Of a stretch of 64,000 bases of DNA, positions 35,827-60,853 are shown piece by piece. The position numbers were made by a program, and so were the translations under genes. The DNA is from Caulobacter sp. 17J80-11. Lineage in GTDB: Bacteria > Pseudomonadota > Alphaproteobacteria > Caulobacterales > Caulobacteraceae. The stretch spans positions 1-64,000 of the forward strand of contig NZ_JACSJI010000008.1 of assembly GCF_014349105.1 (NCBI RefSeq). The letters are read 5' to 3'. Position 1 is the first letter of the stretch; every line of letters starts with the position of its first letter. Under the pieces are notes generated by a model. The model did no database searches and had not been told where the DNA came from. It saw only the letters and a list, made by a program, of their open reading frames with translations.

Positions 35827-38266
35827 ATGTTCCTGCGCGCGAACCGGACGGCCGTGGCCGTCGCCGCCCTGCTGGCCGCCTGCACGGCCGCGCCGCTGGC
35901 CCTGGCCGAGACCTACCACGTCCCGCCCGCGCCGATCGCCCAGATCCTGGACGCCGCGCCGACCCCGCAGGTCAGCCTGAGCAGCGACAGCTCGACCCTG
36001 GCCATCCTGGGCGGCGAGAACCTGCCGTCCATCGCGGCGGTGTCGGAGCCGATCCTGCGGCTGGGCGGCTACCGCATCAATCCGCGCACCGGCGGCCCGA
36101 TCGAGGCGCGCGTGGCCTGGCGCAACGCGCTGAGCTTCCAGGCGGTCGCCGGCGGCCCGGCCAAGGCGGTCGCCCTGCCCGCCGGCCTGCGCTTCACCGA
36201 CACCCGCTGGTCGCCGGACGGCAAGACCCTGGCCTTCGTAGCCGAGACCGCCGACGGGCTGGAGCTGTGGGCGGCGGACGTGAAGACCGCCACGGCGCGG
36301 CGGGTCGGCGCGCCGGGCCTGAACGGCGCGTTCGGCGCGTCCTACAGCTGGCTGCCGGACGGCTCGGGCTTCCTGGTGCGCGCCGTGCCGGCCGGCCGCG
36401 GCGCAGCGCCGGTCGCCCCAACCACGCCGGAAGGTCCGAAGGTGCAGGAGACCCAGGGCGGCAAGTCGGCCCCGGTGCGCACCTATCAGGACCTGCTGTC
36501 CTCGCCGCACGACGAAGCTCTGTTCGCGCACTACTTCACCTCGCAGCTGACCCGCGTCGACCTGCGCACCGGCGCGGCCCAGGCGATCGGCGCGCCCGGC
36601 CTCTACACCGGCGCCAGCGTCTCGCCGGACGGCCGGCTGATCCTGGCCACCCGGGTGAAGCCGCCGTTCAGCTACCTGGTGCCCGCCACCCTGTTCCCGA
36701 CCGAAATCTCGGTGATCGACTTCGGCGGCCAGACGGTGAAGACCCTGGTCGACCGCCCGCTGGCCGACAACGTGCCGCCGCCGTTCGACGCCGTGGTGCT
36801 GGGTCCCCGCAACGCGGAATGGCGCGCCGACGCGCCCGCGACCCTCGTCTGGGTCGAGGCCCAAGACGGCGGCGATCCGCGCAACAAGGCCGAGGTGCGC
36901 GATCGCGTGCTGATGCAGGACGCGCCCTTCACGGCGGCGCCCCGCACCCTGGTCGACCTAGACCAGCGCTACGCCGGCATCGACTGGGGCCGGGCCGACG
37001 CGGCCCTGGTCTACAGCCGCTGGTTCAACACCCGTAACGAGAAGCGCGTGCTGGTGAACCCGGCCCAGCCGGGATCGGGCCGCGTGCTGATCCAGCGCAA
37101 CTACCAGGACCAGTACGGCGACCCGGGCGACGTCGAGACCAAGGCCGACGGCAAGGGCCGGCAGGTGATCCACTTCACCCCCGACGGCAAGAGCGTGTTC
37201 CTGGCCGGCGAAGGCGCGGAGGCCGCCGGCGCGCGGCCGTTCCTGGACCGCATGACCCTGGCCGACGGCAAGACCCAGCGGTTGTGGCAGGCGAAGGCCG
37301 AAGCCTACGAGCCGGTCGTGGCCATCGCCGACGAGGCCGGCCGCAAGCTGATCACCCGCCGCGAGAGCAAGTCCGACGCGCCGAACTTCTTCCTGCGCGA
37401 CCTGGGCGGCAAGTCGCGCGCCCTGACCAGCTTCGTCGACCCGGCCCCGCAGTTCGCCGGGGTCAGCAAGCAGCAGATCACCTACACCCGCGCCGACGGG
37501 GTGCCGCTGAACGGCACGCTGTACCTGCCGGCCGGCTATGATCCCAAGCGCGACGGGCGACTGCCGCTGCTGATGTGGGCCTATCCGGCCGAGTTCACCG
37601 ACGCGAAGGTGGCCGGCCAGACGGTGGACCGCTCCAACCGCTTCACCCGCCCGACCGGGGCCAGCCACCTGTTCCTGCTGACCCAGGGCTATGCGGTGCT
37701 GGACAACCCGACCATGCCCATCGTGGGCGCGAACGGGGCCGAGCCGAACGACACCTATGTCGAGCAGCTGGTGGCCAGCGCCCAGGCGGCGGTCGACAAG
37801 GTGGTGGAGATGGGCGTCGCCGACCGCGACCGCATCGCCGTGGGCGGCCACAGCTACGGCGCGTTCATGACCGCCAACCTGCTGGTGCACACCGACCTGT
37901 TCAAGACCGGCATCGCCCGCTCGGGGGCCTACAACCGCACCCTGACGCCGTTCGGCTTCCAGGCCGAGCAGCGCACCTACTGGGAGGCGGAGGACACCTA
38001 CACGCGCATGAGCCCGTTCACCTACGCCGACAAGGTCAACGAGCCGATCCTGCTGATCCACGGCGAGGCCGACGACAATTCCGGCACCTTCCCGATCCAG
38101 AGCGAGCGGTTCTACGCCGCGCTGAAGGGCGTCGGCGGTGCGCTACGTGGTGCTGCCCAACGAGGCGCACGGCTACCGCGCGCGGGAGTCGAACCTGCAC
38201 ACCCTGTGGGAGATGACCACCTGGCTGGACCGCTGGTTGAAGCCGGCGGCGAAGGCCGCGCCGTAA
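35827..38266 (+). pseudogene. S9 prolyl oligopeptidase-type peptidase, frameshifted near the 3' end
   Basis: A signal peptide (AVAVAALLAACTAAPLALA) is followed by a beta-propeller and a C-terminal alpha/beta hydrolase domain. Ser (GGHSYGAFMTANLL) and Asp (LIHGEADDNSGTFP) of the triad are in the main frame. At about 38134-38140 the frame is lost: the natural continuation VRYVVLPNEAHGYRARESNL, with the catalytic His, and the end TTWLDRWLKPAAKAAP lie in the next frame and stop at TAA 38264-38266. In the straight frame the protein runs on into the type B repeat to 38523 with no homology. So the gene has lost its His unless the shift is a sequencing error or is bypassed. Secreted dipeptidyl-peptidase-like function would be expected of the intact protein. 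Confidence 0.85.
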
Positions 38267-49899: not shown

Positions 49900-50943
49900 T
49901 TGACGGTTCGTATCGGCGTAGACTTCGGGGGCACCAAGATCGAGGCGGCCGCGCTGGACGAAGACGGCCGGTTCCTCGTGCGCGAACGCGTCTCCACCCC
50001 GCAGGACTACGAAAAGGCCGTGCGCGCCGCCGCCGCCCTGGTCGACCGGGTGGAGGCCGAAGCCGGCCGCCCGGGCACGGTGGGCGTGGGCCACCCGGGC
50101 TCGATTTCGCCCAAGACCGACCGGATCCGGAACGCCAACTCCACCTGGCTGAACGACAAGCCGTTCGGCCCGGACCTGGCCGCCGCCATGGGCCGCAAGG
50201 TCAAGCTGGCCAACGACGCCGACTGCCTGGCCCTGTCGGAAAGCCGCGACGGCGCGGGCAGCGGGGCCGGCGTGGTGTTCGCGGTGATTCTCGGCACCGG
50301 GTGCGGCGGCGGGCTGGTGGTGAACGGCGGCCTGATTCGCGGCCGCAACGGCTTCGCCGGCGAATGGGGCCACGGGCCGCTGCCCTGGTCGCGGGCGGAC
50401 GAGGCGACCGACTGCTGGTGCGGGCGGAAGAACTGCCTGGAGACCTTCATCTCCGGCACCGGCCTGCAGAGGGATTTCACCCGGGCGACCGGCGAATCAT
50501 GGACGGCGGAGGAGATCGTGGAGGCGGCGAGATTGGCGCCGCTGCACCGCGGCTTCCAAGGGGCGTCGCCCTCGGGCTCGCCGCACGACGGCTCGGAAGC
50601 GCCCTCACCCGCAAAGCTGAGTGCGAACTGCGCGATGGGCCCTCGGGACAAGCCCGAGGGTGACGATCGGGGGAGTGTCGCGCGCCGACTGGAGCACGAA
50701 GCCCGCTCCGCCCTCGACCGCTGGATGCTGCGCACCGCCCGCGGCCTGGCCAACGTTTGCAACCTGATTGACCCGGACGTCATCGTCGTCGGCGGGGGCT
50801 TGTCCAACGTGCACGAGTTCTACGAGCAGGCCCCGGCCCTGATCGGGGCCTACGTGTTCTCCGACACCTTCGAGACGCCGCTGGTCCCGGCCGCCTGGGG
50901 CGATTCGTCGGGCGTGCGAGGGGCTGCGCGGCTGTGGTCATGA
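49900..50943 (+). CDS. ROK-family sugar kinase with in-frame palindromic-repeat insertion
   Basis: 347 residues from TTG 49900. N-terminal ATP-binding start TVRIGVDFGGTKIEAAALDE; HPGSISPKTDRIRNANSTWL; Asp of ANDADCLALSESRDGAGSGA; GTGCGGGLVVNGGLIRGRNG; and the zinc motif DEATDCWCGRKNCLETF. ROK kinases phosphorylate glucose, fructose, manno- or N-acetyl sugars. Between EEIVEAAR and SALDRWMLRTARGLANVCNL lies an extra ~40-residue stretch (GASPSGSPHDGSEAPSP, MGPRDKPEGDDRGS) that is a translation of a type D element (50565-50664). Without it the length would be ~305, normal for the family. Its TGA overlaps the dinB ATG (ATGA). Confidence 0.9.
   Translation: MTVRIGVDFGGTKIEAAALDEDGRFLVRERVSTPQDYEKAVRAAAALVDRVEAEAGRPGTVGVGHPGSISPKTDRIRNANSTWLNDKPFGPDLAAAMGRKVKLANDADCLALSESRDGAGSGAGVVFAVILGTGCGGGLVVNGGLIRGRNGFAGEWGHGPLPWSRADEATDCWCGRKNCLETFISGTGLQRDFTRATGESWTAEEIVEAARLAPLHRGFQGASPSGSPHDGSEAPSPAKLSANCAMGPRDKPEGDDRGSVARRLEHEARSALDRWMLRTARGLANVCNLIDPDVIVVGGGLSNVHEFYEQAPALIGAYVFSDTFETPLVPAAWGDSSGVRGAARLWS
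50565..50664. repeat. Type D palindromic element inside the ROK kinase gene
   Basis: The right end (50636-50664) is a perfect 29-base match to the right arm of the full element at 60645-60750. The left end (50565-50580) matches its left arm at 14 of 16 bases (GTCGCCCTCGGGCTCG). The reading frame stays open through all of it. Confidence 0.85.
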
Positions 50944-52196
50944 AGGCGATCTGCCGCGACTGCCTGACCACGGCGGCAGAGCCCTTCCGCCGCTGTCCGT
51001 CGTGCGCCAGCCCGCGGGTGATCTCGCACGTCGAACTGGACCGGCTGACCATCGCGCACATGGACTGCGACGCCTTCTACGCCTCCGTGGAGAAGCGCGA
51101 CCGGCCGGAGCTGCGCGACCTTCCCGTCATCGTCGGCGGCGGCAAGCGCGGCGTCGTGTCGACCTGCTGCTACATCGCCCGCCAGTACGGCGTGCGCTCG
51201 GCCATGCCGATGTTCAAGGCGCTGAAGGCCTGCCCCGACGCGGTCGTGATCAAGCCGGACTTCGCCAAGTACAAGGAAGCAAGCCGCCACATCCTGGGCA
51301 CGCTGGCTAGGCTGACCCCGCTGATCCAGCCGCTGTCGCTGGACGAGGCGTGGGTGGACCTGTCGGGCACCGAACGGCTGAACGGCGGGCCGGCCGCCTT
51401 CCAGCTGGCCCGCGCCCAGCGCCAGATCGAGCAGGAGACCGGGCTGACCGTCTCCATCGGCCTGGCCCCCAACAAGTTCCTGGCCAAGATCGCCTCGGAC
51501 CTGGACAAGCCGCGTGGCTTCTCGGTGATCGGGGCGCAGGAGGCGCAGAGCTTCCTCAGCGCCCGCCCGGTGCAGATCCTGCCCGGCGTCGGCGCGCAGA
51601 TGGCCAAACAGCTGCAATCGGCCGGCTTGTCGACGGTCGGCGACCTGGCCCGGGCCGACGTGAAGGACCTGGCCCGCCGGTTCGGCGAGTACGGCCTGCG
51701 CCTGTCCCAGCTCTCCCGAGGCCAGGACGCCCGCGCCGTCGACCCCGAGTCCGAGCGCAAGGGCATGAGCGCCGAGACCACCTTCAACGACGACATGGCC
51801 GGGCTCGCCCAGCTGGAGGACGAGCTCTGGCCGCTGTGCGACAAGCTGGCCGCCAAGGCCAGGCGCGACGGCGCTGCCGCGCGGGTGGTGGTGCTGAAGC
51901 TGAAGACCGCCGATTTCCGGCTGATCACCCGCCGGCGAACCCTGCCCGTCCCCACCCAGACCGCGCGCACCCTGTTCAACGAGGGCCGGACCTTACTGGC
52001 CCGCGAGGCCGACGGGCGCGTGGCCTACCGCCTGATCGGCATCGGCATGGCCGAGCTGGTCGACGCGGCGGACGCCCGGGGCGACCTGTTCGGCGGCGAC
52101 GACGGCCGGGCGCTGAAGACGGAGACCGCGGTGGATGCGCTCAGGGAAAAGTTCGGCAAGGCGGCGGTGACCACCGGGCGGGCGTTGAAAAGGTGA
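50940..52196 (+). CDS. dinB: DNA polymerase IV (DinB) with N-terminal zinc ribbon
   Basis: 418 residues, Y-family translesion polymerase. The polymerase core begins IAHMDCDAFYASVEKRDRPE (first catalytic Asp), with SLDEAWVDLSG (Asp/Glu pair) and a helix-hairpin-helix LPGVGAQMAKQLQSAGLSTV. An N-terminal ~30-residue addition holds CRDC and CPSC, a probable zinc ribbon, not found in E. coli DinB but known in alphaproteobacterial forms. It ends GRALKR without an obvious clamp-binding motif that I can recognise. ATG 50940 overlaps the kinase stop. Confidence 0.94.
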   Translation: MKAICRDCLTTAAEPFRRCPSCASPRVISHVELDRLTIAHMDCDAFYASVEKRDRPELRDLPVIVGGGKRGVVSTCCYIARQYGVRSAMPMFKALKACPDAVVIKPDFAKYKEASRHILGTLARLTPLIQPLSLDEAWVDLSGTERLNGGPAAFQLARAQRQIEQETGLTVSIGLAPNKFLAKIASDLDKPRGFSVIGAQEAQSFLSARPVQILPGVGAQMAKQLQSAGLSTVGDLARADVKDLARRFGEYGLRLSQLSRGQDARAVDPESERKGMSAETTFNDDMAGLAQLEDELWPLCDKLAAKARRDGAAARVVVLKLKTADFRLITRRRTLPVPTQTARTLFNEGRTLLAREADGRVAYRLIGIGMAELVDAADARGDLFGGDDGRALKTETAVDALREKFGKAAVTTGRALKR

Positions 52197-57312: not shown

Positions 57313-57597
57313 GATCTCCCCCTGTTGGGGGGAGCAGGCGGCTGCAAGCCGCCGTGGGGGGCTCCAGCGGAGCGCACGGGTTCAGCCCCAACCTCCGCTC
57401 ATCCCCGCGAAAGCGGGGACCCAGAGCGCCCCCGCGTCCCAGCGCGCTCGGACGTTCGAACCGATACTTTCAACAGCCAAAGGTCCCGCACCTGGGTCCC
57501 CGCTTTCGCGGGGATGAGCGGATATGGAACGGGCGCGCTCCGCTGGAGCCCCCTCGACGCTTCGCGGTCCCCCTCCCCCAGAGGGGGAGGATCTAGT
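57313..57597. repeat. Nested palindromic elements (type C around type E)
   Basis: The 280-bp gap is filled by two elements. The outer one (type C) has arms GGCTCCAGCGGAGCGC near 57360 and its inverse GCGCTCCGCTGGAGCC near 57536, with terminal hairpins TCCCCCTGTTGGGGGGA and CCCTCCCCCAGAGGGGGA. Inside its loop is a 127-bp element (57395-57521) with perfect 30-bp inverted ends based on the hairpin CCCCGCGAAAGCGGGG. No gene is present. Confidence 0.85.
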
Positions 57598-58504: not shown

Positions 58505-58535
58505 GAGCGGGTCCTTCAGAAAACAGCGTGACCAT

Positions 58536-59266: not shown

Positions 59267-59361
59267 GTCGGCCCTCCCCGTATTTCACCGATCATGGGTG
59301 CGCGAAGCGTCTCAACGGTCAAGCCCGCTGCGGTGCTGTTGCGAATGCGGCGCGCCTAATC

Positions 59362-60623: not shown

Positions 60624-60644
60624 CCCTCTCCCCGCCCCAACATC

Positions 60645-60750
60645 GTCACCCTCGGGCTTGTCCCGAGGGCCCAGCGTTCAGCTCGCACGAGCCCTCGACA
60701 GCTTCGCGCTTCCGGCCGCCCTGGGCCCTCGGGACAAGCCCGAGGGTGAC
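60645..60750. repeat. Type D palindromic element, complete copy
   Basis: 106 bp with perfect 29-bp inverted ends (60645-60673 and 60722-60750; each contains CCCTCGGG and its inverse, so each arm is itself a hairpin). It lies between queA and tgt. A second copy lies within the ROK kinase gene at 50565-50664. Confidence 0.9.
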
Positions 60751-60853
60751 GGGTATTGGAGCTGACCCGGCGCGCTCGACGCGGGCAGGTTTTGGTGTGC
60801 CTGCGGCGTCGCTTCACGCTACAGAGCGCGCCCGAGCGCTTATCTGAGACCCC

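Follow-up and report, generated by a model that had tools for sequence, protein, structure and literature searches.

The kinase gene and its insert

The window, a 64,000-nt stretch of Caulobacter sp. 17J80-11 DNA belonging to a 169-kb contig of a 3.82-Mb genome, contains a gene for a ROK-family sugar kinase, whose nearest PDB structures are N-acetylglucosamine kinases, followed by a dinB-like gene for a Y-family DNA polymerase (Table 1). The stop of the former overlaps the start of the latter (50934–50943), which suggests that the two genes may be translationally coupled. A palindromic element, named type D in an initial annotation of this DNA, lies within the kinase gene, and the reading frame remains open across it, as had been stated there. 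The letter D is kept for this family, while the letters C and E to H, used for other palindrome families, were assigned in the present analysis.

Table 1. Genes and palindromic features of the window discussed in the text.
Feature	Position	Strand	Remarks
ROK-family sugar kinase ORF with insert	49900..50943	+	TTG start, 347 aa; Pfam ROK E=7e-70
Segment unalignable with the kinase of the sister species	50546..50700	+	155 nt here, 191 nt in the sister species
Worn type D dimer (putative REP dimer)	50564..50665	-	Read in frame as kinase residues about 222–255
Second type D arm, shortened	50564..50578	+	Outer part alone retained; by-eye comparison with full dimers
Exact 28-nt type D arm	50637..50664	-	Kinase-strand reading MGPRDKPEGD
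Y-family DNA polymerase (dinB-like) ORF	50940..52196	+	ATG overlaps the kinase stop codon; the ORF list has an in-frame GTG start at 50934
Type C dimer flanked by the two halves of a type G palindrome	57398..57518	.	The sister species also has type C here, with another spacer
Full intergenic type D dimer	60644..60751	.	Perfect 31-nt arms 60644–60674 and 60721–60751; type G palindrome at the same place in the sister species

Within the kinase, the segments 50564–50578 and 50651–50665 form an inverted repeat of 15 nt that is 93% complementary; one arm of the element is exact and the other has lost its inner part relative to full dimers. The codon scores adjoining the D arm are modest (20 and 21). 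We defined the slot that holds the element as the span from the SG motif to GGGLSN; with 111 residues it is 51 residues longer than usual (60), more than the approximately 40 added residues initially estimated, and the extra sequence beyond residues about 222–255 resembles neither type D nor type C recognisably. In the AlphaFold2 model of the kinase with its insert, obtained from a six-sequence alignment (mean pLDDT 84.2, pTM 0.81), residues 217–254 have pLDDT values below 50 and are flanked by helices 203–212 and 256–289. In this model the added residues look like a disordered loop between two helices, the position that had been proposed from the sequence.

The type D family

Allowing at most 3 mismatches, the type D arm has 82 matches in the 3.82-Mb genome (40 forward and 42 reverse), whereas the control, the same arm pattern read backwards, has none in the same genome; 72 of the 82 matches form 36 inverted pairs, so that head-to-head dimers predominate. 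The sister genome has 24 matches. The full copy that had been reported at 60645–60750 is present, its perfect arms being 31 nt long instead of the 29 bp given for them. Among the fetched loci of both genomes, the sizes of 51 distinct dimers peak at 104 nt (12 dimers) and at 137–141 nt (25 dimers), and at least one frame of the six is open in 48 of 49 D dimers. In the type D and type C dimers of both genomes the arms are near-identical, while spacers of similar length are very variable, a combination that is not accounted for by plain copying and subsequent neutral decay. A C-rich stretch lies about 8–11 nt outside the arm in both families; in type D, positions −9 and −8 are C in 71% of 106 arms.

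The D arm has the structure CCCTCGGG-CTTGT-CCCGAGGG, followed by C and CCA. In 99% of the 106 D arms of both genomes a C precedes GTCACC, and the resulting CGTC tag is outermost in the dimers; type C has GCTC at the same position. In the excerpts consulted, the work that describes the CGTC-tagged REP superfamily (Di Nocera et al., 2013; PMC3733652) characterises its members by a CGTC tag that is outside in dimers, a stem of 8–9 bp, a loop of 4–5 nt and a CCA tail, states that they occur mostly as head-to-head dimers and without a dedicated tyrosine transposase gene, and names C. crescentus as CGTC-positive. Type D shares with them the outer CGTC, a stem of 8 bp, a loop of 5 nt, the CCA tail, the head-to-head dimers, the variable spacers, an alphaproteobacterial host, the lack of a dedicated transposase as judged by PF01797, and the presence of some members inside genes. 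According to the same excerpts, the first two pairs of the stem are "almost invariably" A–T, a usual and not a required feature; in type D, A stands opposite C in the outer stem, followed by a C–G pair, and the A–T pairs are not kept. Judged by its sequence, type D best fits a dimer of the CGTC superfamily in which the A–T stem pairs are absent, and we speak of a best fit rather than of a proven member because these outer pairs are not kept.

REPINs consist of paired inverted REP arms around a spacer, and type D resembles GTAG REPs and REPINs in that inverted paired arms flank its spacer. GTAG REPs, as far as the same excerpts go, are mobilised by RAYT transposases (PMC3733652), whereas type D has neither of the two hallmarks: the GTAG tag is absent from the D arm ends, and the genome contains no match to PF01797 (Y1_Tnp), for which 5 of 14 control genomes are positive. 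A RAYT as mobiliser of type D was rejected on this result. The proposal that type D elements move or have moved holds to the extent that they have moved or been lost, as the differences at orthologous sites described below indicate; the search for a mobiliser, made with PF01797 only, identified none.

The kinase slot in homologues and in the sister species

The slot was surveyed in 95 loci, with the truncated locus L035 excluded; these loci are part of the outcome of a search of 199 genomes of the family, which gave matches in 133, and they include paralogues and a few genomes that are represented repeatedly. Outside the genus, the slot has 60 residues in 65 of 92 loci and 48–59 residues in 20; among the remaining seven, the 105 residues obtained for one are an artefact of the motif search and six were missed by the motif and have no insert on reading. 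The insert is therefore found in none of the 92 homologous loci outside the genus. The alignment of homologues that had been suggested as a search for the empty site located it in other genera and not within the genus, represented by two genomes, this one and that of one sister species; no target duplication was delimited. The variation of the slot between 48 and 60 aa among loci might recall an ordinary native loop of the kinase with a chance match to type D, a reading that we consider hardly credible, given an exact 28-nt arm from a family with 82 matches against none for the control and the absence of the extra segment from all 92 loci.

In the sister species, present in the survey as two loci, the slot has 123 aa and holds, in frame, a type C dimer both of whose arms are exact, translated as SPRKRGP...LGPRFRGDE. 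The type C arm has 8 matches in the genome studied here and 24 in that of the sister. The same slot with a different intact palindrome in the sister species is a new observation of this work, as are the family differences at several orthologous intergenic sites described below. Around the insert, both species have extra residues in common, APL before and LE after it.

Outside the insert (290 codons), the kinases of the two species share 93.4% of their nucleotides and 97.2% of their amino acids (NG86: dN 0.013, dS 0.25; YN00: dN 0.011, dS 0.78), and the gene is, by these estimates, under strong purifying selection, with dN/dS about 0.05. The columns characteristic of the ROK family are conserved, the flanking DNA of the two species has identities of 94% and 91% at the kinase, and all kinase homologues in a plasmid collection are below 60% identity. 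Both assemblies are at draft stage (29 and 360 contigs) and repeats are typical places of assembly faults, which could raise the question of a decaying gene or of an assembly error at the insert; with the frame open in both species, the low dN/dS, the conserved ROK columns and different elements in two separate assemblies, we regard either as very unlikely.

Translation and tolerance of the insert are what these sequence comparisons point to. With good confidence, we interpret the type D dimer in the kinase as an in-frame, disordered and tolerated passenger: a worn head-to-head dimer of the CGTC REP type that would lie in a kinase loop and be read through in frame. The tolerated in-frame insertion already suggested in the initial annotation is supported by the absence of the segment from the 92 homologous loci outside the genus, by the predicted disorder of the loop and by the purifying selection on the remainder of the protein. 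Pressure to keep the frame open may also come from the dinB start, which overlaps the kinase stop.

This overlap, together with the stable hairpins predicted in both species (raw energies of −56.7 kcal/mol for the kinase D element and −115.7 kcal/mol for the longer sister insert), could also be taken to mean that the insert has acquired a function, in which the hairpin in the mRNA or the added peptide would tune the expression of the kinase or its coupling to the overlapping dinB. We find this improbable, since the peptides of the two species derive from different elements, one arm has decayed here and the kinase copy folds less stably than the full D copy (−85.9 kcal/mol).

In-frame genic copies and the order of events

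We screened 79 element rows from both genomes, after the removal of duplicates and of rows less than 200 nt from a locus end, with a codon-usage heuristic that covers arms with up to 3–4 mismatches, so that more worn copies are missed. In ten of the 79 rows the best-coding frame is identical on the two sides of the element and runs through it without a stop. Eight of these ten candidates were rejected on reading, four being located in short ORFs (20–68 aa) and four at the starts of longer ORFs, upstream of the likely start codon. The only convincing in-frame genic copies among these rows are the two in the kinases, one per species.

Two orders of events may have led to the present occupants. 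An insertion in the common ancestor may first have created a dispensable loop in the kinase, and later elements, D here and C in the sister, would have landed in or replaced this first occupant while the frame stayed open. Such an ancestral insertion is favoured because genic copies are rare and because the two species share extra residues around the inserts; it is disfavoured because no remnant of D or C is found beside the present elements, in a test that covered these two families. In this test (60 shuffles each), the parts of both inserts that are not element sequence gave no convincing remnant of D or C; the comparison of the sister right flank with C gave a low value (0.017), which we take to reflect the outer extension of the C element itself. 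A direct sign of shared ancestry of the two inserts was also sought and rejected: their collinear match spans just 18 nt and is equalled by 3% of 300 shuffles.

In the other order, each species would have received its own, independent insertion in the same loop, empty until then and with no ancestral occupant; this is an alternative to the sequence of events and not to the tolerated passenger. The element families differ, the flanks of neither insert bear a trace of the other, and in the AlphaFold2 model the loop tolerates insertion; on the other hand, two in-frame copies in 79 rows make a double chance strike unlikely unless the slot is unusually receptive, and the APL and LE residues occur in both species, although they may be native. 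We give this alternative somewhat less than an even chance, and hold the choice between an ancestral insertion with later replacement and two independent insertions to be about balanced. We read the kinase slot as a tolerated landing site with a changing occupant.

Comparison with described intragenic elements

Intragenic members of the CGTC superfamily are reported in the excerpts of PMC3733652 for varied host genes, with replication and repair genes stressed, whereas the host gene of the present type D copy encodes a sugar kinase. As intragenic in-frame members are, by that account, already described, the kinase copy adds another one. The parallel with the Rickettsia palindromic elements drawn in the initial annotation may be closer than it appeared, since the same excerpts place RPE-4 and RPE-6 in the CGTC superfamily, which type D mostly fits; this link rests on the published classification and not on sequence alignment. 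RPE-4 and RPE-6, like type D, lie in frame in coding genes (the function of the kinase being judged here by sequence), but there are many in-frame cases in Rickettsia and one convincing case per species in the Caulobacteraceae considered here. The kinase is a clear example, from outside Rickettsia, of a protein gene still under selection in which a REP-type dimer appears to be read.

A likeness to the slot itself is found in recB of Xanthomonas, where, as the excerpts report, different REPs occupy about the same coding site in the related species X. campestris and X. oryzae (PMC3733652). That case concerns another gene and lineage, and the kinase case has intergenic parallels as well. Enterobacterial small mobile sequences, reported to occur intragenically (PMC2759123; PMC2229807), are likewise small non-autonomous repeats inside genes, belonging to other element families and to other hosts. 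Our literature searches returned nothing relevant on REPINs in Caulobacter and no paper on REP sequences or RAYT in Alphaproteobacteria.

Occupant turnover at orthologous intergenic sites

At several intergenic sites with both flanks aligned, the two species also differ in their occupants. D here corresponds to F in the sister at L071 1788–1964, 5525–6681 and 9462–9679, and D also corresponds to F in the pair L011/L126. At L071 8391–8556, D lies next to an F common to both species, and the sister has a second F in its place; at L071 3803–3934 a worn single D arm is matched by F and G; at 60634–60782, the site of the full D copy, D here is matched by G in the sister; and at 38252 H here is matched by G in the sister. 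In L082/L097, where one flank alone aligns, D is matched by a single C arm. The F at 58516 has no counterpart in the sister, and the H at 59308 is absent there, with a short F-like palindrome instead. D is kept in both species in L078/L137, L081/L119 and L076/L130, and in L075/L133 and L079/L124, where the sister is down to a single arm. In both species the type C dimer at 57398 separates the two halves of a type G palindrome (Table 1), which suggests that palindromes insert into palindromes.

Joint occupancy was counted in intervals from four stretches, three of which were picked for their D content, with shared inherited elements counted as joint, an F label drawn from short motifs, and no matching for gene orientation or intergenic length. 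With an inverted repeat of at least 12 bp as the mark of occupancy, 7 of 19 orthologous intergenic intervals are occupied here, 7 in the sister and 6 in both (p=0.002); in a set of 28 intervals, the corresponding numbers are 14, 14 and 12 when either a family label or an inverted repeat counts (p=2e-4), and 10, 11 and 8 with the inverted repeat alone (p=0.002). No family label is common to the two species in 4 of the 12 jointly occupied intervals. F-motif stubs beside D dimers were not significantly enriched (7 of 74 flanks versus 2 of 74 farther out, p=0.17).

We tentatively propose, as a possibility that we favour less than its opposite, that, at fixed sites on the chromosome in this genus, palindromes of one family give way to those of another, unrelated one, perhaps through preferred landing in, or recombination with, an existing palindrome, and that the kinase slot is a protein-coding instance of this exchange. 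If so, the kinase loop would be rewritten at each change of occupant. The occurrence of two families in one slot renders two ideas testable, namely that elements land in existing palindromes and that slots of this kind give rise to new protein segments. Apart from PMC3733652, we recognised no report of family replacement at orthologous sites in a literature search that drew mostly on listings.

Two further sites, L094 1501–1720 and L071 2633–2845, have in the sister a type C element with both arms; in the genome studied here, an F or E palindrome stands in place of one half of it. The palindrome CCTTCTCCCNNNNNGGGAGAAGGA, counted on both strands, has 157 matches in the genome studied here and 337 in that of the sister species, a difference of about twofold.
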